Of a stretch of DNA of 15,422 bases, positions 989-10,627 are shown in pieces. Origin of the DNA: Acidimicrobiia bacterium. GTDB lineage: Bacteria; Actinomycetota; Acidimicrobiia; Spongiisociales; UBA5794. The position numbers and the translations under genes were made by a program. The notes under the pieces are model-generated. The model was given only the letters and a program-made list of their open reading frames with translations. It did no database searches and was not told the origin of the DNA. Every line of letters begins with the position of its first letter. Positions within the stretch are counted from its first letter, which is position 1. The stretch spans positions 1 to 15,422 of the forward strand of contig JABDMN010000276.1 of NCBI GenBank assembly GCA_013001485.1, read 5' to 3'.

Positions 989-1994
989 CCACGTCGTAGA
1001 TGTCTTCGGTCACTCCACGAACTGTGGAACACGCCTCTTCCAACGACACCGGGACGATCTCCGATCCCCGCAGCGCAACCATCACCCCGGACTCGCCGGC
1101 GACGGCAAGGTCAGCTGCAGCGACGCCAAGCCGTGTCGCCAGCACCCGATCGAACGCGGTGGGGGTGCCGCCTCGCTGAACGTGGCCGAGCACCGTGACC
1201 CGTGTCTCGAACCCGGTGAGGTCTTCAATCGTGGGCGCAAGGGAGTAGGCGACACCACCGAGGCGTTCGAACCCGAACGCGTCTTTCCGAACGTCGAGCT
1301 TCACCCCTTTTGGAGGGGCCACCCCCTCGGCGACCACCACGATGGAGAACCGTCTGCCCGCCCGGTACCGCTTCTTCACAATCGAGGCGACCTCGTCGAG
1401 GTCGTACGGGACCTCGGGGATCAAGATGGCGTCGGCACCACCGGCGATCCCGGAATAGGTGGCGATCCACCCCTTGGTGCGGCCCATCACCTCGAGCAGC
1501 ATCACCCGGTTGTGAGCCTCGGCGGTCGATGCGAGTCGGTCGATGGCCTCCGTGGCCACACTGACCGCGGTGTCGAACCCAAACGTCATATCGGTGCCGT
1601 TGATGTCGTTGTCAATGGTCTTCGGCACCCCGATGACGTTGAGTCCCTCCTCCGACAGCTGGAGAGCCGACCTCAGGGTTCCGTCACCCCCGATGACGAC
1701 CAACGTGTCGATCCCTGTCTTGCGGAGTGTGTTCTTGCACGACTCGAGCCCGGTGCCGTGGACATAGGGGTCCATGCGCGAGGTGCCCAGCATGGTGCCG
1801 CCACGAGTGAGGATGCCACGGACGTCGTCACGGTCGAGCGACACCGTGTCGCCCTCGATGAGGCCCTGCCAACCGTTGAGGATGCCCAGTACCTCGACGT
1901 CGTGAGTCTCCGTCGCCCTCACGGTGACTCCCCGGATAACCGCGTTGAGCCCGGGGCAATCGCCGCCAGCGGTGAGGATGCCGATGACGCTCAT
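969..1994 (-). CDS. pfkA: 6-phosphofructokinase, ATP-type signature (group III / mixed-substrate PFK)
   Basis: A 341-residue phosphofructokinase that phosphorylates fructose 6-phosphate to the 1,6-bisphosphate in glycolysis. The N-terminal loop TAGGDCPGLN (8-17) is typical. The nucleotide site reads GGDGT (102-106), with glycine where PPi-dependent enzymes have aspartate (E. coli position 104), which predicts ATP use. The catalytic loop PKTIDND (124-130) carries the lysine found in actinobacterial group III enzymes. MGR (170-172) and HVQRGGTPTAFD (271-282) are substrate-site blocks. The start is set at ATG 1994: an upstream in-frame start would add 28 unlike residues inside the preceding gene, while the family starts just before GILTAGGD. 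One base separates this ATG from the TGA of the upstream PFK paralogue, so the two are probably translationally coupled. Cofactor preference is inferred from the signature. Confidence 0.93.
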   Translation of the reverse strand: MSVIGILTAGGDCPGLNAVIRGVTVRATETHDVEVLGILNGWQGLIEGDTVSLDRDDVRGILTRGGTMLGTSRMDPYVHGTGLESCKNTLRKTGIDTLVVIGGDGTLRSALQLSEEGLNVIGVPKTIDNDINGTDMTFGFDTAVSVATEAIDRLASTAEAHNRVMLLEVMGRTKGWIATYSGIAGGADAILIPEVPYDLDEVASIVKKRYRAGRRFSIVVVAEGVAPPKGVKLDVRKDAFGFERLGGVAYSLAPTIEDLTGFETRVTVLGHVQRGGTPTAFDRVLATRLGVAAADLAVAGESGVMVALRGSEIVPVSLEEACSTVRGVTEDIYDVASTFFG

Positions 1995-1995
1995 G

Positions 1996-3144
1996 TCAGT
2001 ACAGGAACATCGGTTTGCCGGTGACGTGGCGGAGCTTGGGTCGATAGGCCTCGAGGTCATACAGCTCGTCGACATCAACCCGCTTCACGCCCTCGTTCGT
2101 CACCGAGATCGGCACTGCCGTGTAGGTGCCGGATCGCAACGCCACCATGCGGCCGGACGCTCCCTCGAGAGCGAGGTCGGCCGCCATGACGGCGTAGTTG
2201 GTGGCCACCATCAGGTCGAGGGAATCGGGGCTTCCCGACCGCATCAGATACGCAACCTGCTGGTAGATGATCTTCTGGCCGGTGATCTCCTTGAGCATTT
2301 CACCGGTCATCTGGCCGACTCCGCCCAGCTTGCGGTGCCCGTAGGCGTCTGCCTCGCCGCTCAGGTGCATCTCGCCGCCTTCGATGTGGGCTCCCTCAGA
2401 GATGGTCATCATTGCGTAGTTGGAGGGGTTGGACGCCTTGTCCTGAACGAGCTGCTCTGCAAGCCGGTTGATGTCGAAGGGAACCTCCGAAATCACCGCT
2501 CTGTCGACGCCGGAGAGATAGGCCGTCACGAGCGAGGTCTGGCCGCTGTATCGCCCGAAGAGCTCGACGACGGCGATCCTCTCGTGAGAGCCCGTTGAGG
2601 TACGCAGGTTGTGGATGAACTGGACGCCGCGGGTTACTGCCGTCGAGAACCCGATGCAGTAGTCGGTTCCGTGCACGTCGTTGTCCATGGTCTTGGGAAC
2701 CGCGATGACCGGCACACCCTCTTCATGGAGACGCAATCCATAGCTGAGGGTGTCGTCGCCGCCAATGGGGATCATCACGTCGATGCCCTGGGATTCGAGA
2801 ACCCTGATGGCGTGGTCGGTGAAGTCGTAGGGGCCGTCGCCGACTGCTCGGTCGGCAAGGAACTCCGGGACCTCGGAGGGCCGTACCTTGCCGGGGTTGG
2901 TTCTCGATGTGTGGAGGAAGGTGCCTCCCGTCCGGTCGACGGTGCGGACGCGAGCGCGGGTGAGGGGCAGCAAGTTCTCGGCAACGCTGGCAGCGTCGTC
3001 CGGGTTCGTGTTGAGGATGCCGCCCCAGCCTCGACGGATTCCGACTACTTCGTGCCCGAGGTCATCGACGCGGTTTACGACCGCCTTGATGCAGGCGTTG
3101 AGGCCCGGTACGTCCCCGCCGCCGGTGAGAATTCCGATACGCAT
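1996..3144 (-). CDS. pfp: Phosphofructokinase, pyrophosphate-type signature (PPi-PFK-like)
   Basis: A 382-residue member of the phosphofructokinase family, first gene of a two-gene PFK unit. The N-terminal loop is [10 protein letters not shown] (7-16). The nucleotide site reads GGDDT (128-132), and the second aspartate replaces the glycine of ATP enzymes. With lysine in PKTMDND (150-156) this is the Asp104/Lys124 combination that marks PPi-dependent PFKs such as the Amycolatopsis enzyme. FGRYSG (196-201) corresponds to the MGR substrate block. PPi enzymes run the step reversibly and are generally not allosterically controlled. ATG 3144 is chosen as start because a GGGGAG lies four bases upstream. 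A TTG at 3156 would add four residues and place that ribosome-binding site inside the gene. The two PFKs are clearly diverged paralogues, not a recent duplication. Using PPi as phosphoryl donor is a prediction from motif only. Confidence 0.92.
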
Positions 3145-3347
3145 GATGCTCCCCAATTGCTGTTTTCGGCATCACAGGATGCTCGCGGCGGGAGCCTAGC
3201 CCGCGTGGGGTTTGGCTCCGAGACTCGCCACGGCAGCCTCGGTCTCCGCCGTTGTGGAGTGACGGTTTTCGCGGGTCGCTGGCGCGGAGGGCGACTGGTA
3301 TCGTCGGTGCTTACACGCATGTAGTTCTCTGCTCGGGGCGCGGTCAG
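3145..3347. other. Divergent intergenic region between the PFK pair and dnaE (203 bp)
   Basis: This gap must hold the promoters of both the PFK pair (leftward) and dnaE (rightward). Facing dnaE, TGGTATCGT (3296-3304) resembles an extended -10 element (TGN-TATNNT) about 44 bases before the GTG start, without a convincing -35. Facing the PFKs, TAGGCT (minus strand, 3198-3193) is a weak -10 candidate. GGAGCC (3191-3196) and GGCTCC (3214-3219) form a six-base inverted repeat with a 17-base loop, overlapping the leftward candidate. No coding potential or RNA gene is evident. Confidence 0.35.
3149..3154 (-). promoter_or_regulatory. Ribosome-binding site deciding the PPi-type PFK start
   Basis: On the minus strand this reads GGGGAG, four bases before the ATG at 3144. 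It would fall within the coding region if the TTG at 3156 were used, so it supports the ATG. It is one of the few clear Shine-Dalgarno-like sequences in the window. Confidence 0.6.
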
Positions 3348-6300
3348 GTGAGTAGTTCGGCTTCCAAGAACGATCAGTTCGTCCATCTCCACGTCCACAC
3401 CGAGTTCTCAATGCTCGACGGTGCTGCTCGTGTGGATGACCTCGTCGCCGCCGTGGCCGCCGACGATCAACCGGCTGTCGCCATCACCGATCACGGTGTC
3501 CTTTACGGCGTCGTCGACTTCTACAAGGCGGCTCGCACTACAGGTGTGAAGCCGATCATTGGCATTGAGGCCTACGTGACTCCCGGTTCCCGGTTCGATC
3601 GCCCGCGCCGCAGCGACGACCTGCGGTTCCACATGAACCTGCTTGCCGTGAACGACACGGGGTATCGCAACCTGATGACGCTGGCTTCGCGGGCGTACCT
3701 CGACGGGTTCTATTACAAGCCGCGCATGGATCGCGAGCTCCTGGCTGAGTATTCCGAGGGACTGGTGGCCACAAGTGGATGCCTGGGAGGCCACGTCCCC
3801 CAGCTTCTTGCCCCGGACGCCTCCGGCGAGGAAGGGAATCAGGGTCAGGAACGCGACTACGAGGCCGCGCTCGAGGCAGCCGGGATGTACCAGGACATCT
3901 TCGGCAAGGACTCGTTCTACATCGAGATTCAGAACCATGGCATCCCTGCTCAGCAGCGGGTCATGGGTGATCTGCTGTCCATCGCGTCATCGATCGACGC
4001 ACCGCTTCTGGCCACGAACGACACCCATTACACCTATGCGTCCGAGGCCGACGCCCACGACGCGCTTCTGTGCATTCAGACCGGGGCGATCAAGTCGGAA
4101 GAGAAGCGTTTCAAGTTCCAGTCGAACGAGTTCTACGTGAAGTCGGCCGCCGAGATGCGAGCGTTGTTCCCCGAGGCCGACTTCCCCGGCGCATGTGACA
4201 ACACACTCGAAATCGCCGAACGCGCCGATGTCACCCTGGAGTTCGACAAGATCTTGCTGCCCCACTTCCCTGTGCCCACCGGGGAGTCCGAGACGGCGTA
4301 TCTCGCCTCGCTGGTCGTCGCTGGTGCTCGCCAACGCTACGGAGAGGTGCTGCCCGCCGAGGTCTCCGAGCGGATCGACTACGAACTGAGAGTCATCGAC
4401 GACATGGGGTTCTCGTCGTACTTCCTGATCGTCTGGGACCTCATCCGCTACGCCAAGGAGCGGGGGATCCGCACCGGACCGGGTCGTGGAAGCGCCGCCG
4501 GCTCGATCGTTGCCTACAGCCTCGGGATCACCGCGCTCGATCCCATCCACTACGGGCTCATTTTCGAGCGGTTCCTCAATCCCGGCCGGCGTGAGATGCC
4601 CGACATCGACATGGATTTCGATGAGCGCTATCGCACTGAGATGATCCGCTACTGCGCCGAGCGGTATGGCTCGGACCATGTAGCCCAGATCGTCACGTTC
4701 TCAACGATCAAGGGTCGGCAGGCGGTGCGAGATGCTGCCCGGGTGCTCGGATTTCCCTACGGACTCGGCGACAAGGTCGCCAAGCTCATGCCGCCTGCAA
4801 TCCTCGGCCGTGAGGCTTCGTTGTCGCAGTGCCTGGATGCCCCGCACGCGGACTCAGATCAAGAGCTGCGGGACCACTTCACGGCCGCGTCGGGACTCCG
4901 CACCGCCTATGAGACCGACCCCGATATCAAGCTCGTGGTCGACACCGCGCGAGGCCTTGAAGGTCTCCGTCGCCAGGACTCCATCCATGCAGCCGCAGTG
5001 GTGATCTCAGCCCAGCCGCTGACTGACATCGTGCCTCTGCAGCGCAAGGGTGAGGACGCCGAGGTTGTCACCCAGTACGAGATGCACGCCGTCGAGGCCC
5101 TCGGCTTGCTGAAGATGGATTTTCTGGGCCTGCGCAACCTGTCCACCATCGAACGGGCACTCGAGCTCATCGAAACCAATACCGGCGAGCGCATCGACAT
5201 CGACAACATCCCGCTCGACGATCCCGGCGTATTCACCATGTTGCAGGCTGGGGAGTCCATGGGCGTGTTCCAGTTCGAGGGTGGTCCGATGCGATCGCTG
5301 ATGCGCAACCTCAAGCCCGAACGGTTCGACCATCTTGTGGCCCTGAACGCCCTGTATCGGCCTGGCCCGCTCGGTGCGGGCATGCACACCGAGTACGCCG
5401 ACCGCAAGAACGGGCGGTCAGAGATCAGCTATCTGCATCCCGACCTCGAACCGATCCTTGGCGACTCCTACGGGATCATGGTGTTCCAGGAGCAGGTCAT
5501 GCAGGTGGCTCAGACGATGGCCGGGTTCTCGATGATCGAGGCCGATGGCCTGCGCAAGGCAATGGGCAAGAAGATCCCGTCGGTCATGGCTGCCCAGCAG
5601 GAGAAGTTCGTCGCTGGCTGCGTGGCGGAGGGCTATGACGAGGCTCTCGGCAAGGAGTTGTTCGGATTCATCGAGCACTTCGCCGGATACGGGTTCAACC
5701 GATCCCACTCTGCCGCCTACGGCCTCGTGGCGTATCAGACGGCGTGGCTGAAACACCGGTACCCGGCCGAGTACATGGCCGCACTTCTGACATCCTCCAA
5801 GCGCGACAAGGACCGAACCGCGATCTATCTCCACGAGTGCCGGCGGATGGGCATCGACGTCACCGTCCCGGACGTCAACACGTCGCAATCGGACTTCGTC
5901 GCCACTGACGGCAGCATCGTCTTCGGGCTCTCCGCCGTCCGCAACGTCGGTGAGGGAGTTGTCGAGTTGACCGTTTTGGAGCGAGACAAGAACGGCCCGT
6001 TCGCCGACTTCAAGGACTTCGTCGATCGTGTCGACCTGTCGGTGCTCAACAAGAGGACGATCGAGTCACTGGTCAAGGCCGGCGGGTTCGACTCCCTGGG
6101 TCATGCCCGACGCGGGCTGCTGCTCGTGTTCGAACAGATGCTCGACGCCGCTGTGGGACGTCGTCGGGCAGAGGCGATGGGCCAATACAGCCTGTTCGGT
6201 GGTGACGACGGTGCGGTGGTCGAGCACCCCGTCGTGATCCCCGAAGACGAGTGGGACAAGAAGACCCGGCTCGCGTTCGAGAAGGAGATGCTCGGCCTCT

Positions 6301-6875
6301 ATGTCTCGGATCATCCGCTGTTCGGCGTCGGAAAGGTGCTCGAGTCGATGTCGACAGCCACCATTCCGGGCCTGCTCGACATGGATGACAAGGCGTCTGT
6401 GACGGTCGGCGGCATCGTCGGTGCGATCACGCGGCGCTACACCAAGGCGGGCGACCCGATGTTCTTCTTCTCGCTGGAGGACCTGGAGGGGAGTGTCGAG
6501 GTGGTCTGCTTCCCCCGCACCGTCGCCGAGTACGGGCCGCTGATTCGAGAGGACGCCATCCTCCTTGTTGGGGGCCGGCTCGATCACAACGGCGACGGGG
6601 TGAAGGTCATCGGCCAGGAGCTCCGCGAGCCGACGCTCGACGCCGGCGAGGCCGTGCGGCTTCGGGTCCCGGCGGCCCGTCTATCACGCGCCGTGGTCGA
6701 TCGCCTGCGCGCGTTGCTGCGCAACCATCCGGGCGCGGCTGCCGTGTATCTCCACATGGTGGGTGATGACTCGGGCGAGAAGGTCATCAAGCTTGGCGAC
6801 GACCACCGGGTCGAGCCCCGAACTGCGTTGTACGCCGAGCTCCGTGAGCTGTTGGGCCCGAGCGCAGTCCTCTAG
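3348..6875 (+). CDS. dnaE: DNA polymerase III alpha subunit (DnaE1-type replicative polymerase)
   Basis: Catalytic subunit of the replicative polymerase, 1175 residues, close to the length usual in actinobacteria. The N-terminal PHP domain opens with HLHVHTE (13-19), followed by ITDHGVLYG. M. tuberculosis DnaE1 proofreads with this domain, and the metal-ligand motifs look intact here. The polymerase core has PDIDMDFDER (from 418), giving aspartates 419 and 421, and KMDFLGLRNLS with the third catalytic aspartate near 591. The QYSLF at 946-950, in the linker after the fingers, is a beta-clamp-binding motif of the expected form. An OB-fold follows (VTVGGIVGAITRRYTKAGD). GTG 3348 is chosen because it starts just before the conserved PHP opening. 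The longer frame from 3252 adds residues with no family match and crosses the likely promoter. The stop shares CTAG with the convergent ATPase gene. No intein or truncation is seen. Confidence 0.97.
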   Translation: MSSSASKNDQFVHLHVHTEFSMLDGAARVDDLVAAVAADDQPAVAITDHGVLYGVVDFYKAARTTGVKPIIGIEAYVTPGSRFDRPRRSDDLRFHMNLLAVNDTGYRNLMTLASRAYLDGFYYKPRMDRELLAEYSEGLVATSGCLGGHVPQLLAPDASGEEGNQGQERDYEAALEAAGMYQDIFGKDSFYIEIQNHGIPAQQRVMGDLLSIASSIDAPLLATNDTHYTYASEADAHDALLCIQTGAIKSEEKRFKFQSNEFYVKSAAEMRALFPEADFPGACDNTLEIAERADVTLEFDKILLPHFPVPTGESETAYLASLVVAGARQRYGEVLPAEVSERIDYELRVIDDMGFSSYFLIVWDLIRYAKERGIRTGPGRGSAAGSIVAYSLGITALDPIHYGLIFERFLNPGRREMPDIDMDFDERYRTEMIRYCAERYGSDHVAQIVTFSTIKGRQAVRDAARVLGFPYGLGDKVAKLMPPAILGREASLSQCLDAPHADSDQELRDHFTAASGLRTAYETDPDIKLVVDTARGLEGLRRQDSIHAAAVVISAQPLTDIVPLQRKGEDAEVVTQYEMHAVEALGLLKMDFLGLRNLSTIERALELIETNTGERIDIDNIPLDDPGVFTMLQAGESMGVFQFEGGPMRSLMRNLKPERFDHLVALNALYRPGPLGAGMHTEYADRKNGRSEISYLHPDLEPILGDSYGIMVFQEQVMQVAQTMAGFSMIEADGLRKAMGKKIPSVMAAQQEKFVAGCVAEGYDEALGKELFGFIEHFAGYGFNRSHSAAYGLVAYQTAWLKHRYPAEYMAALLTSSKRDKDRTAIYLHECRRMGIDVTVPDVNTSQSDFVATDGSIVFGLSAVRNVGEGVVELTVLERDKNGPFADFKDFVDRVDLSVLNKRTIESLVKAGGFDSLGHARRGLLLVFEQMLDAAVGRRRAEAMGQYSLFGGDDGAVVEHPVVIPEDEWDKKTRLAFEKEMLGLYVSDHPLFGVGKVLESMSTATIPGLLDMDDKASVTVGGIVGAITRRYTKAGDPMFFFSLEDLEGSVEVVCFPRTVAEYGPLIREDAILLVGGRLDHNGDGVKVIGQELREPTLDAGEAVRLRVPAARLSRAVVDRLRALLRNHPGAAAVYLHMVGDDSGEKVIKLGDDHRVEPRTALYAELRELLGPSAVL

Positions 6876-7882
6876 GGAGTGGTGGGCAGTCCGTCGGCGA
6901 GCGTGTCGAGAGCATCGGCGTCCGTCGGCGGAGTGGCCAACCAGGGAACCGCGACCACATCAACGCCGTATCGCTCAGAGAACTCTGCCTGCACCCGTGC
7001 TCCCTTGTGAGCCTCGGTGCCCCATCGTTCGATTGCCTTGTCGGCGATGACCCCGATCTTGCCTTCGACCCCGCTGGGGCCGGCGTCGGCCCACTCAGCT
7101 GGAAGGGCCCGATTGAAGACCACGAGCTCCGGTTTCTCGATGCTGCCGAAGAACCGGTGCGCCTCGCGAAGGGGCGTGGGGTCTGATGTGGTGACGACGA
7201 CTGTCGTGGCTTCGGCGAGGTGACGTTCGACGTGCCGGGCTCGTGCCGAAATGCCGTCATGGAGGGTTCGCAGGTCGACGAAGAAGTCGGCTATCTCTTC
7301 GAGCAGCGGTCCACCCAATACCGAGTCGGCCAGGCGAAGTGCCGGCCGGGCGGCGATGCGATACAAGGCCTTTCGCCCGGGGAGGCGAGCCCCCGTGATC
7401 CACCGCAACAGGCGCCCCCCGATGAGATTTCGCATGTTGGCCGGTGCCTCGAAGAAGTCGATGCCTCCTGCCGACGGGGGTGTGTCGACGACGATCACCT
7501 CCCATCTGCCTGACTCGATGTACCGCGACATCTCCTCGCCGGCGGCGTAGGACTGGGCGGCAGGGAAGCGATCGGCGATCGCCCTGAAGTACGGGTTGGC
7601 GAGCAACCGGTCTGCGACGTCAGGCTCGGCGTGCTGGTTGACCATTGCCTCCCACGACGCGGTCACGTCGAGCATCGCTGCCGAGAGGCCAGGTTCGTTA
7701 GGAACGGGCTCGGGATCGTTGCCGAGCTCGTCGAGACCCAGCGCGTCGGCGAGCCGCCGAGCGGGGTCGACCGTGAGCACGAGGGCGGACGATCCTTGTC
7801 TCGCAGCGCGGACCGCGGTAGCCGCGGCCAGCGTCGTCTTGCCGACACCTCCCGCACCGGTGACGACTACGACCCTGCTCAT
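6872..7882 (-). CDS. ArsA/Get3-family ATPase, second subunit of a pair (Rv3680-like)
   Basis: A 336-residue deviant-Walker ATPase resembling M. tuberculosis Rv3680. The P-loop is GAGGVGKTT (9-17). It lacks the signature lysine of classical ArsA/Get3 loops (GKGG), as I recall Rv3680 also does. TVDPARRLADALG (37-49) corresponds to the Rv3680 TIDPAKRLAQALG block, and VVVDTPPSAGGIDFFEAP holds the switch region DTPP (133-136). No arsenite-binding cysteines are evident, so an arsenic pump role is unlikely. The mycobacterial pair is described as a Get3-like complex, so a client-protein or envelope-linked role is more plausible. The ATG overlaps the stop of the upstream ATPase by four bases (ATGA, 7879-7882), which supports co-translation of the two subunits. 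The stop is palindromically shared with dnaE. Confidence 0.9.
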   Translation of the reverse strand: MSRVVVVTGAGGVGKTTLAAATAVRAARQGSSALVLTVDPARRLADALGLDELGNDPEPVPNEPGLSAAMLDVTASWEAMVNQHAEPDVADRLLANPYFRAIADRFPAAQSYAAGEEMSRYIESGRWEVIVVDTPPSAGGIDFFEAPANMRNLIGGRLLRWITGARLPGRKALYRIAARPALRLADSVLGGPLLEEIADFFVDLRTLHDGISARARHVERHLAEATTVVVTTSDPTPLREAHRFFGSIEKPELVVFNRALPAEWADAGPSGVEGKIGVIADKAIERWGTEAHKGARVQAEFSERYGVDVVAVPWLATPPTDADALDTLADGLPTTP

Positions 7883-8730
7883 GTCGACTCCAGGAGGTCC
7901 GCTATCCGCGCAGCCACCTCGAAGGGCGTGAGCAGGCCGAACAGGTAGGGGAGACGGATCGCCGGGTCGAGCTCGGCGAGCCAGTACGTCTGGTCGGCAG
8001 CGACGGCGGTGTGAAGAGACACGGCTTCACGGTGAGGTCCTTCAGGAAGTCGAGACAGACTGCGGTTCGTTACGTCCAAGGGCTCGACGACGCGGTTCGC
8101 CACGACTGCACTGACGGGGATCACCCCTTCTCCCTCGAGCATGGCGACGGCCTCCAGCGTCTCGTTGACGGGGAGTTCGGCGGGGGTCGCCACGAGGACG
8201 AGCTCGCTGTCCTGGGCCAGGACTTCGGCCATGGCGGTTGCCTGGTCGCGCACGCGTCCGCCGGGGACGATCGAGGCGACGGTCTGGGGAGCCCGGAGGT
8301 AGGAGGCCAGCTGTCCAAGAGGCGGTGCGTCGACGATCACGTGGTCCCATCGCTCGCTCCACACCTCGAACACGGGCTTGCCCATGGTGACGATCTCGCG
8401 GATCCCCGGTGCCGTTTCGGCGAGCACGGTCAGGGCTCGTGTCAGCTGGGCGGTAGGCGCTGCCCGTGGCACACGCAGCTGCAGGCGTATGTACTCATCG
8501 AGTGCCGCCGGCCTGTCGAGGGCAAGAGCCGAGACACCGGGGTGGATCTCTCGAGCCTCATAGGTAAGGCGCTCGACACCGAGGTGTTCGGCCAGTCCGA
8601 GCGGCTCGGTGAGGCCGACCACCAGCACCCGAGCGCCGTGGGAAGCCGCCTGTAGCGCGAGGGCAGCAGCGACCGCCGATTTCCCGACGCCGCCCTTCCC
8701 GGAGACGACGACCAGATGGCTGTCGAGCAT
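7879..8730 (-). CDS. ArsA/Get3-family ATPase, first subunit of a pair (Rv3679-like)
   Basis: A 283-residue P-loop ATPase matching the M. tuberculosis Rv3679 layout. The loop is the complete deviant Walker A GKGGVGKS (11-18). VDAPPLGQLASYL (133-145) is the switch region, comparable to the VDAPPTGRIARFL of Rv3679. LVATPAELPVNETLEAV (179-195) matches the Rv3679 LPVQETLEAIEEL segment. It is shorter than Rv3679, mainly at the C-terminus. It is likely the partner of the ATPase encoded next, and the two probably form a heteromer in which this subunit has the classical signature lysine. The ATG directly follows the TAG of the upstream small gene (TAGATG), so translation is probably coupled. Substrate is unknown; arsenite transport is not supported by any visible cysteine site. 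Confidence 0.9.
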   Translation of the reverse strand: MLDSHLVVVSGKGGVGKSAVAAALALQAASHGARVLVVGLTEPLGLAEHLGVERLTYEAREIHPGVSALALDRPAALDEYIRLQLRVPRAAPTAQLTRALTVLAETAPGIREIVTMGKPVFEVWSERWDHVIVDAPPLGQLASYLRAPQTVASIVPGGRVRDQATAMAEVLAQDSELVLVATPAELPVNETLEAVAMLEGEGVIPVSAVVANRVVEPLDVTNRSLSRLPEGPHREAVSLHTAVAADQTYWLAELDPAIRLPYLFGLLTPFEVAARIADLLEST

Positions 8731-8977: not shown

Positions 8978-10627
8978 TCACTCTGGATCGGCGATGCCCG
9001 CCGCGGCCCGCTTTGCTGCTGCCCTGCGCTCGCCCTCGAGGCGGGCCAGGTCGTAATCGTTGTGATCGACGAACTGCATGGCGTCTGCGATCCGACGGTG
9101 ACCCGCCTGGTCGCGGATGAGCCGGTGCATCTCCTGACACACTCTGCGGTAGTCGGGATGACCGCCCTGAGCAGTGCGTAGCTCGAGGAGGTGGAACGCC
9201 TCCCGGGCGTTCAGCTGGAAGAAGAACCGGATCTTGTAGGCGAACGGAACCACGTATTGGGCGACGTCAGCGCCAAGGCCCGGGGCGAGTGCTCCGTGCA
9301 ACTCGGCGGTTCGATCCATGGCCTCGCGCCAGACGCCATCTGCTCCGATGTCAACGATCGACTCTGGCAAGACATACCCGTGAAGCGGGCCCAGCCGCTG
9401 CCAGTCGAGAGTAAGCATGCGATGGCGCTGGAGGTCACGGAAGATCCCGTAGTCGGCCAGGATGTCGAACCGATACGCGGTGCGCTCCATCGCCCGACCT
9501 GGCTTGTGGCGGCGGTTCTGCCGGTCTCCGACATAGGCAGCGAACACCCGGTCTATGTCGACGTCGCTCATCGACTCTGAGGCGGTGAGCAAGTGGTCGT
9601 CGGGGAGGTTGGTGTACGGGTACAGGCTGGCGGCTGCCACCTTGCGCTCGGCATCACGATCCCAGTCGACCAGGACCACCTCGGGACGCGGCTCCGGGGG
9701 TCCCTCGTAGGTCCCCGCTTCGGTGCGCATCCGGCCCGCAACGTCCTCCAGGTAGCTGGACCAGGCACCGCCCCGTTCGGGGATATCGACGCGCCGCATG
9801 AACGCCGGCATCATCTTGCGAAGCTCGGTCAGCATCATCCTCGCGTAGTCGCGAGCTTCAGCGAGCGGGTGAGCGAACATGCGCAGCAGCATCATCTCGT
9901 ACGCCTGACCCGAAGCGAAGATGCCAACGTTCGAGGACGTCGAAGCCGGAAGCAGGCCGCGCACGTCGTCACACGCCTTGGCACGAATGGTCGACCGCCA
10001 CACGAACCCAGAGTCACCCTCCTGTTTCGGATAGAGGGTCTCGTAGTAGGGCACCAGCTTCGCGACGAGTTCAGCGTAGGTATCGAACAGCCAGTCCATC
10101 GTCTCGGAATAGAGCGCGGCATGAGGCGACGCTGCGATCTCGGGGGGCACGATGTAGCGGTAGCGATCGCCGAGTTTCTTGTCGTAGAAGATGTAGCGCG
10201 TCGATTGCTCGAGGTACGACGCCAGCCGACCCCATTCGAGGACTTTGGTCAGGATGTTGGATGCCTGTTCGCAGGCGAGATGGGCACCGCCGACCTGGGC
10301 GACAGAATCATCGCCGTACTCCGTGAAGACACGTTGGTACAGGTCTTCGGCACGCTTGCGGTCGACGATGGGATCGCCAGAACCGACGTGGTCGGCGATC
10401 GAGACGACGCCAGTCTCCGGGTGGTTGTAGAACTCGTCGAGGAAGAGCCGTCGGACCGACTTGGGAGACCGGCTGTACCTGGCGAACAACGCCCCCTTGA
10501 CCACCTCGGGCAGGTTCTGAATGCCGAAAACTGGCGAGTCCAGGTTGGTGAAGAATCGGTCCAGCACCTGTCGCTCCTCGGCAGTGAACGACTCGGTTGC
10601 ATACACGGTGGTGCTCGTCGCGGTCAT
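8978..10627 (-). CDS. Tandem-domain ThyX-like protein (FAD-dependent thymidylate synthase superfamily), domains complementarily degenerate
   Basis: At 549 residues this is over twice the length of ordinary ThyX (about 220-250), and it contains two ThyX-like domains. Domain 1 (about 95-290) has YGDDSVAQ and then ASYLEQSTRY, keeping the E, S and R equivalent to Thermotoga E86, S88 and R90 at 140, 142 and 144. It also keeps VRGLLP with the R147-equivalent at 223, but R78-H79 have become W-G and NAR has become SGQ. Domain 2 (about 365-520) has QRHRML with RHR intact at 401-403, NAR at 473-475 and LELR with the R174-equivalent at 484. Its S88, R90 and R147 counterparts are R, G and Q. Canonical ThyX methylates dUMP using methylene-tetrahydrofolate, NADPH and FAD, with each site built from two chains. 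A GGAG four bases upstream supports the ATG at 10627. It heads an apparent four-gene unit. Activity is uncertain, so no symbol is given. Confidence 0.85.
   Translation of the reverse strand: MTATSTTVYATESFTAEERQVLDRFFTNLDSPVFGIQNLPEVVKGALFARYSRSPKSVRRLFLDEFYNHPETGVVSIADHVGSGDPIVDRKRAEDLYQRVFTEYGDDSVAQVGGAHLACEQASNILTKVLEWGRLASYLEQSTRYIFYDKKLGDRYRYIVPPEIAASPHAALYSETMDWLFDTYAELVAKLVPYYETLYPKQEGDSGFVWRSTIRAKACDDVRGLLPASTSSNVGIFASGQAYEMMLLRMFAHPLAEARDYARMMLTELRKMMPAFMRRVDIPERGGAWSSYLEDVAGRMRTEAGTYEGPPEPRPEVVLVDWDRDAERKVAAASLYPYTNLPDDHLLTASESMSDVDIDRVFAAYVGDRQNRRHKPGRAMERTAYRFDILADYGIFRDLQRHRMLTLDWQRLGPLHGYVLPESIVDIGADGVWREAMDRTAELHGALAPGLGADVAQYVVPFAYKIRFFFQLNAREAFHLLELRTAQGGHPDYRRVCQEMHRLIRDQAGHRRIADAMQFVDHNDYDLARLEGERRAAAKRAAAGIADPE

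Follow-up and report, generated by a model that had tools for sequence, protein, structure and literature searches.

The window analysed here, a stretch of 15,422 nucleotides from an Acidimicrobiia bacterium, contains a gene whose product resembles the flavin-dependent thymidylate synthase ThyX twice over, with different active-site residues kept in each of the two copies. This raises the question of whether such a protein can still convert dUMP to dTMP and, if it can, from which parts its active sites would be assembled.

Two ThyX-like domains with complementary residues

The gene lies on the minus strand (Table 1); the plus-strand reading of 8978-10627 is broken by stops. The Pfam family Thy1 (PF02511) matches two stretches of the protein with a total of 139.6 bits against a curated cut-off of 24.8, and is the only family matched at E values up to 0.01, the ThyA family (PF00303) not being among the matches. 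The NCBIfam thyX equivalog TIGR02170 scores 66.4 bits, under its cut-off of 87.9. The first-pass annotation, which described two ThyX-like domains in one chain of 549 residues, is thereby borne out: both Thy1 stretches fall within a single minus-strand frame. The possibility of a pseudogene or a sequencing artefact was considered and is ruled out by the single open frame in many assemblies and by the conserved residues. With outer limits of the domains (D1 and D2) that are our choice, profile-profile alignment with single-domain ThyX gave E values of 1.9e-8 for D1 and 1.2e-15 for D2. Aligned with each other, the two profiles give only a meaningless 2-column alignment, so that the pair may stem from the duplication of one gene or from the fusion of two ThyX genes. 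Elsewhere on the minus strand of the window, two consecutive ORFs for ArsA-type ATPases (6872-7882 and 7879-8730), overlapping by 4 bases, adjoin the tandem ThyX gene, and two back-to-back phosphofructokinase ORFs (969-2078 and 1999-3156) have open frames that overlap by ~80 bases.

Table 1. Features of the tandem ThyX gene in the window. Equivalents are residues of Thermotoga maritima ThyX; counts refer to the 98 tandem rows unless another total is given.
Feature	Position	Strand	Remarks
Tandem ThyX ORF	8978..10627	minus	549 aa plus stop, ATG start
Domain 1 (D1), about residues 16-304	9716..10582	minus	Thy1 match at residues 86-275; keeps the putative dUMP-clamping half-site
Domain 2 (D2), about residues 305-549	8981..9715	minus	Second Thy1 match, 9107-9673; keeps the putative flavin and uracil-activating half-site
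D1 E140-Q-S142-T-R144-Y145 (E86, S88, R90, Y91 equivalents)	10193..10210	minus	S142, R144, Y145 98/98; E140 96/98
D1 R223 (R147 equivalent)	9959..9961	minus	98/98
D1 W132-G133 at the R78-H79 place	10229..10234	minus	W74 R21 D3; G88 P6 H2 A1 S1
D1 S108 (T55 equivalent)	10304..10306	minus	98/98 and 10/10
D2 R401-H402-R403 (RHR motif)	9419..9427	minus	98/98 each; 10/10
D2 N473-A-R475 (NAR)	9203..9211	minus	R475 98/98; R in only 4/9 far relatives
D2 R484 (R174 equivalent)	9176..9178	minus	97/97, one gap; 10/10
D2 R411, L412, G413 at the S88, G89, R90 places	9389..9397	minus	R411 and G413 positions vary
D2 Q457 at the R147 place	9257..9259	minus	Q58 P18 S12 A5 and others

The residues on which the earlier proposal was built are all where it placed them: E140, S142, R144, R223, W132-G133 and S239-G240-Q241 (where NAR would be) in D1, and R401-H402-R403, N473-A474-R475, R484, R411, G413 and Q457 in D2. 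Their assigned Thermotoga equivalences are upheld by a MAFFT alignment with the T. maritima sequence and by profile-profile alignment. To these we add the equivalent of the lid tyrosine Y91, which is also kept in D1 only. RHR occurs only in D2 and S-x-R-Y only in D1; neither domain has RHR-x7-S with the following R, and this ThyX motif is complete only across both domains. The main residues of the composite inter-subunit site are present, with S142, R144, Y145 and R223 in D1 and R401-403 and R484 in D2. S108 and W132 are 24 residues apart, the same spacing as that between Ser71 and Arg95 of M. tuberculosis ThyX as given in the accessible text of PMC6514825.

Subunit roles and predicted fold

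The same accessible text describes a M. tuberculosis ThyX site in which subunit A supplies RHR 95-97 and R199, subunit B supplies S71 and R190, and subunit C supplies R87, S105, R107 and Y108 (PMC6514825). The part of PMC3498832 available to us describes PBCV-1 ThyX with a bound inhibitor, where monomer A contributes Gln75 and Arg182 and monomer B contributes Ser88 and Gln89. For T. maritima ThyX, excerpts of PMC8316439 report that the S88A, R90A and Y91A variants are slower in the dUMP-triggered consumption of the flavin carbinolamine and that R174 activates dUMP. The first-pass annotation was right to draw the dUMP site from different chains, but not to draw it from only two, the canonical site using three subunits (accessible text of PMC6514825). 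By alignment, the residues of role A are in D2 and those of role C are in D1, and the role of the third subunit, B, seems to fall mostly to D1. In the tandem family we did not identify a conserved counterpart of M. tuberculosis R87. Because RHR and R174 stand on a different subunit from S88, R90 and Y91 in print, the kept residues would form one composite site, and the reciprocal site would be dead.

An AlphaFold2 model computed from a 12-row alignment has a mean pLDDT of 83.3 and a pTM of 0.82; the means of the five models range from 58.6 to 83.3, and the D1 motif stretch (residues 131-150) is at pLDDT 56-64. The 50 PDB matches listed by Foldseek are all ThyX or its homologue PolB, with TM-scores by target of 0.60-0.75, and span the length of one domain, which of the two being unspecified. 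The model and these matches over one domain's length suggest a ThyX fold. Longer matches, over 537-552 columns, are to two viral models, which include the thymidylate synthase of Ma-LMM01. A phmmer search of the PDB with the window protein gave no match at E values up to 0.01; the family alignment profile does find matches there, the best at 4.8e-5. The division of residues implies a putative pseudo-tetramer of two chains.

Conservation of the partition across the family

The family alignment consists of 98 tandem rows, with relatives taken from genome and phage scans only. All rows have S142, T143, R144, Y145 and R223 in D1, with E140 in 96 of them; in D2, R401, H402, R403 and R475 are likewise present throughout, and R484 in each of the 97 rows without a gap. 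The reciprocal places are occupied otherwise. In D1, the R78 and H79 places are mostly tryptophan and glycine (Table 1), the R165 place is Q in 95 rows and R in 3, and the rows tallied for the R174 place show L, M or F. In D2, the S88 place holds a mixture of residues, the R90 place holds T (51), S (26), G (19) and two others, and the R147 place is Q in 58 rows, with P, S, A and others in the rest. When the rows are thinned to 18 with less than 60% identity the partition persists, with exceptions: in D1 the H79 place is H once and the R78 place is R in 5/18, and in D2 the R147 place is R once.

A ten-row alignment of three bacterial and seven phage sequences, reaching down to 18% identity, has 21 invariant columns: S52, R53, Y104, S108, S142, T143, R144, D220, R223, L225 and P227 in D1, and D392, G394, D398, R401, H402, R403, L483, R484, H490 and R494 in D2. 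They include 7/7 of the predicted residues and 0/7 of the reciprocal ones; the corresponding hypergeometric probability for 7/7 among 21 (4e-11 over 549 positions) is illustrative, as motif residues are adjacent and the rows are related. From annotated binding sites, we take S30, E58 and R147 to be ThyX site residues as well. The equivalents of S30 and T55 are always serine in D1 (S52 and S108) and not in D2. It had been proposed earlier that homologues should conserve the two retained half-sites jointly; these positions are among the best conserved of the family and do not vary freely. As judged from the alignments, the observed partition is a family trait.

The split is not entirely neat. 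D2 keeps R475 (the R165 equivalent) and E381 (the E58 equivalent), and D1 keeps R134 (the R80 equivalent), each in 98/98 rows. A pure model in which D2 plays subunit A would need neither R475, R165 belonging to subunit B in print, nor E381. The R165 equivalent is found in D2 in the 98 rows; among nine far relatives it is found in D1 in 6/9 and in D2 in 4/9. In addition, R369, R372, R373 and R378 of D2 are invariant, at places where the aligned T. maritima sequence has no arginine.

Distribution and phylogeny

A scan of genome contigs returned 11 relatives, with best-segment identities from 86% down to 32% and record titles naming Acidimicrobiia, Ilumatobacteraceae, Dehalococcoidia, SAR202, Verrucomicrobia, Deltaproteobacteria and Doudnabacteria. 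In a sample of the window's own phylum, probably Actinomycetota to judge from L003-L006, 88 of 296 genomes match at 1e-10. In a second sample, from the phylum of a Dehalococcoidia genome (G300), the profile of the family alignment matched 97 of 251 genomes; of these, 84 carry by our count a two-domain protein (broken in two in G403), 12 a single-domain one and one only a fragment. Inspection of 19 further regions from this second sample, built around the genome of L007, gave one single-domain protein (L159) and 18 tandem ones; in 18/18 of the latter, RHR is found in D2 and S-x-R-[YF] in D1. A scan of viral contigs gave no match with the window protein alone and two loci with the family alignment. 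Known phage carriers are Tunturi_5, BONAISHI, Microcystis phages including Ma-LMM01, the Vibrio Yong phages, Microcoleus phage My-WqHQDG and two IMG/VR contigs.

In a quick tree of 56 domains, which has several very long branches, all 21 D1 and all 21 D2 sequences are each set apart from the other domains by a branch of SH-aLRT 99, and the 14 single-domain rows by one of 78. The simplest reading of this separation is a single fusion that predates the divergence of bacterial and phage copies.

One protein departs from the common pattern: L144 (G385, C50:42300-44400) has both RHR and S-x-R-Y in D1, and in D2 it has just RHR. By eye, the R174 place of its D1 is leucine, and its D2 has lost S88, R90 and R147. 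With RHR retained in D1 the losses look stepwise, and L144 would be an apparent intermediate of the split. A distant tandem class (L147-L151), scoring 17 to 30 bits with the family profile, has an identical division of residues; its stop-to-stop frames are of 559-712 aa, that of L150 extending beyond its region.

Co-occurrence with other thymidylate synthases

The first-pass annotation called for a look at the genome for a separate thyA or canonical thyX. Neither is found in the window's assembly (G000, 82.85% complete), which has no PF00303 match and PF02511 only in the two halves of the tandem protein, and in the two phylum samples the tandem form nearly excludes the others. In the first sample, single-domain ThyX (at least 100 bits) occurs in 120/296 genomes overall and in 0/88 tandem genomes, where 35.7 would be expected; ThyA of at least 200 bits occurs in 31/296 overall and in 1/88 tandem genomes against an expected 9.2, and PF00303 matches of any strength in 3/88 (G199, G129 and G230). 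In the second sample, single-domain ThyX is present in 119/251 genomes and in 0/84 tandem ones (expected 39.8), ThyA of at least 150 bits in 10/251 and in 0/84 (expected 3.3), and weak PF00303 matches in 4/84. Fisher values for the exclusion are 7e-26 and 2e-32, with the relatedness of genomes ignored. PF00303 is also found in 0/15 of the genomes or records behind L003-L013 and L128-L131.

PF02511 matches were listed down to 68.6 bits in the 296-genome sample and 93.9 bits in the 251-genome sample, and a stronger single-domain ThyX would appear among them. Apart from five genomes, the tandem ones have one or two such matches. Two of the five belong to the first sample, G040 with 4 matches (from two tandem copies) and G292 with 3; the others, of the second sample, are G354 and G404 with 3 each and G435 with 4, from two tandem copies or pieces. 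The third match of G354 and G404 is not among the matches listed. The two copies of G040 are both full-length and lie on different contigs (L019 and L056).

None of the kinds of thymidylate synthase counted was found in 59/296 and 38/251 genomes. Since the enzyme so often goes undetected, its absence from one genome says little, and it is the near-exclusion that matters. A count limited to strong ThyA and single-domain ThyX would leave 87/296 and 84/251 genomes seemingly without a thymidylate synthase, a metabolic gap that the tandem ThyX would fill. Members of one family seem to exchange one form for another: two families (f27 and f51) have one single-domain ThyX genome each (G143 and G172) among tandem ones, and G177, of the window's order, has a ThyA of 419 bits but lacks PF02511.

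The three tandem genomes with PF00303 differ in what they carry. In G199 a contig of 7.2 kb carries ThyA as two pieces that are separated by ~1 kb. At this locus (L112, G199 C39:500-6000; split ThyA at 1466-3390) the ORF between the ThyA pieces resembles a GIY-YIG endonuclease, and the split ThyA is upstream of, and next to, an ORF that resembles DHFR, both by eye; a search for an intron in the split gene gave no Rfam match at gathering scores. G129 has a ThyA fragment where a contig of 3.8 kb ends, preceded by an ORF that again resembles DHFR by eye, and the PF00303 match of G230 is partial, at 51 bits (locus L113).

Five genomes (L123-L127), 0/5 of them among the tandem genomes of the window's phylum sample, have one diverged ThyX each, with PF02511 matches of 39-44 bits, frames of 300-451 aa and THR for RHR. 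In 39/296 genomes with neither tandem ThyX, single-domain ThyX nor strong ThyA, PF00303 scores ~44 bits or less; these weak matches are in frames mostly of 190-330 aa (e.g. G015, G020, G030) and are perhaps diverged ThyA.

Gene neighbourhoods

A dUMP-supplying gene is near the tandem ThyX at 3/7 phage loci, and a nucleotide-related neighbour, if a dNMP kinase is included, at 4/7. At L129 a dUTPase gene overlaps the start of ThyX by 4 bases and is preceded by an ORF resembling ribonucleotide reductase (RNR_Alpha scores 27.6 bits, above its cut-off of 26.4, and two further RNR models fall short of theirs). At L128 an ORF of the DCD family lies ~0.9 kb downstream of ThyX, at L130 (Tunturi_5) a dCMP deaminase gene is directly upstream, and at L134 a dNMP kinase gene is two genes upstream. 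L131, L132 and L133 have no dUMP-related neighbour in the stretch fetched (L131 and L132 by annotation only). In Ma-LMM01, gp020, the thyX homologue, is classed as a middle gene, as are RNR and dUTPase, according to the available portion of PMC5780444. The Tunturi_5 dCMP deaminase (L130, 941-1903) also contains a CBM_5_12 carbohydrate-binding stretch of 39.3 bits. Clustering of ORFs from 98 loci of unequal flank revealed no conserved bacterial neighbour: the largest remaining cluster covers 16/98 loci, with the ThyX cluster set aside together with one of 92 loci and 328 ORFs taken for overlapping frames.

A probable lopsided thymidylate synthase and its alternatives

We consider it highly probable (about 84%) that the tandem protein is a flavin-dependent thymidylate synthase built as a pseudo-heterodimer, with live D2-centred and dead D1-centred sites. 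The pseudo-dimer with one composite and one dead site put forward in the first-pass annotation is supported by the conserved partition and the near-exclusion. D2 would hold FAD and polarise the uracil through RHR and the R174 equivalent, and D1 would hold dUMP and cover the flavin through the equivalents of S88, R90, Y91 and R147, which in ThyX come from a neighbouring subunit. Two chains would place their four domains as in the ThyX tetramer. If D1 takes roles B and C and D2 takes role A, each D2-centred site would be complete and each D1-centred site would be empty of key residues, with 2/4 sites live. The meeting of the half-sites, the quaternary arrangement, catalysis, and pairing within the same chain or between two are what we infer from sequence. 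As the tandem form tends to replace the usual enzyme of four identical subunits rather than to accompany it, it probably works as a lopsided version of that enzyme, and is probably the sole thymidylate synthase of this organism.

A more elaborate reading, tentative at best, is that of an obligate half-sites enzyme, its two specialised domains no longer able to function singly, whose dead D1-centred pockets bind nucleotide or flavin for regulation, the same split having arisen in a second tandem class, L147-L151. The regulatory pocket would use R369, R372, R373 and R378 of D2 together with the kept R475 and E381.

It is unlikely that thymidylate synthase activity has been lost and the pocket reused in another flavin or nucleotide role, with thymidylate coming from an unassembled thyA or thyX or from salvage. 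The score below the NCBIfam cut-off, the incompleteness of the assembly (82.85%), from which a gene could be missing, the 59/296 sampled genomes with no counted thymidylate synthase and the four D2 arginines that have no T. maritima counterpart would fit such a loss. Against these stand the near-exclusion in 296 and 251 genomes, the residues of ThyX chemistry among the few invariant ones, the dUMP-making genes beside 3/7 phage copies and the grouping of gp020 with RNR and dUTPase among the middle genes of Ma-LMM01 (PMC5780444, available portion).

Less likely still is an active enzyme with no dead site, in which both sites of the pseudo-dimer work through substituted residues (W132, Q241, R411 and others). 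R134 (98/98) and Q241 (95/98) in D1 and R475 and E381 (98/98) in D2 are conserved beyond the need of a wholly dead D1-centred site; yet unlike residues alternate at D1's R78 place and at the S88, R90 and R147 places of D2, glycine predominates at the D1 H79 place (88/98), and the tallied rows have L, M or F where D1 would have R174. Methylation of a pyrimidine nucleotide other than dUMP is very improbable: the ThyX homologue PolB reportedly acts as an unusual UMP C-5 methylase (PMC5003785, in the part accessible), so substrate shifts do occur, but the near-exclusion suggests dTMP production, and dUMP-making genes neighbour the tandem gene at 3/7 phage loci.

In the putative pseudo-heterodimer, evolution has already taken each half of the site away from one domain, and the protein would therefore serve as a natural experiment on what the individual subunits contribute to the three-subunit ThyX site. 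It would also show clearly how a site shared between subunits can degenerate in complementary ways, with L144 as an apparent intermediate.

Comparison with known systems

We found no description of a tandem ThyX or of its divided site among the titles and abstract openings listed in our literature searches, with thin coverage of subscription papers; the accessible portions of PMC9931769 and PMC10733785 hold nothing relevant on duplication, tandem or domain arrangement. ThyA (PF00303) would perform the same pathway step, and is of a different family, unmatched in the window's assembly. Single-domain ThyX (FDTS; T. maritima TM0449, 1o26; M. tuberculosis 2af6/3gwc) shares with the window protein the Thy1 domain, the fold over one domain and the dUMP- and flavin-contacting residues (accessible text of PMC6514825) except for the R87 equivalent, these residues being spread over two domains in the window protein. 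Unlike it, the window protein has two domains per chain, neither having RHR and S-x-R together, and its D1-centred sites are predicted to be without key residues.

The closest relatives already named are viral. The tandem proteins of Tunturiibacter phage Tunturi_5 (gp50) and of the Vibrio phages BONAISHI and Yong XC31 have the same invariant residues at only 20-24% identity to the window protein; the Yong XC31 copy is annotated as hypothetical. The window protein matches PHROG 36506, 'thymidylate synthase', at 3.4e-8 and 33.5 bits, and gp020 of Microcystis phage Ma-LMM01 (491 aa) matches it over all 491 positions. This phage protein shares the two-domain build and the partition, but is only 21% identical to the window protein, is 58 residues shorter and does not keep the NAR of D2. 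Such proteins are thus already annotated as thymidylate synthases in some members of the family; the partition of the site between the two domains may be new, as far as the titles and abstract openings listed go.
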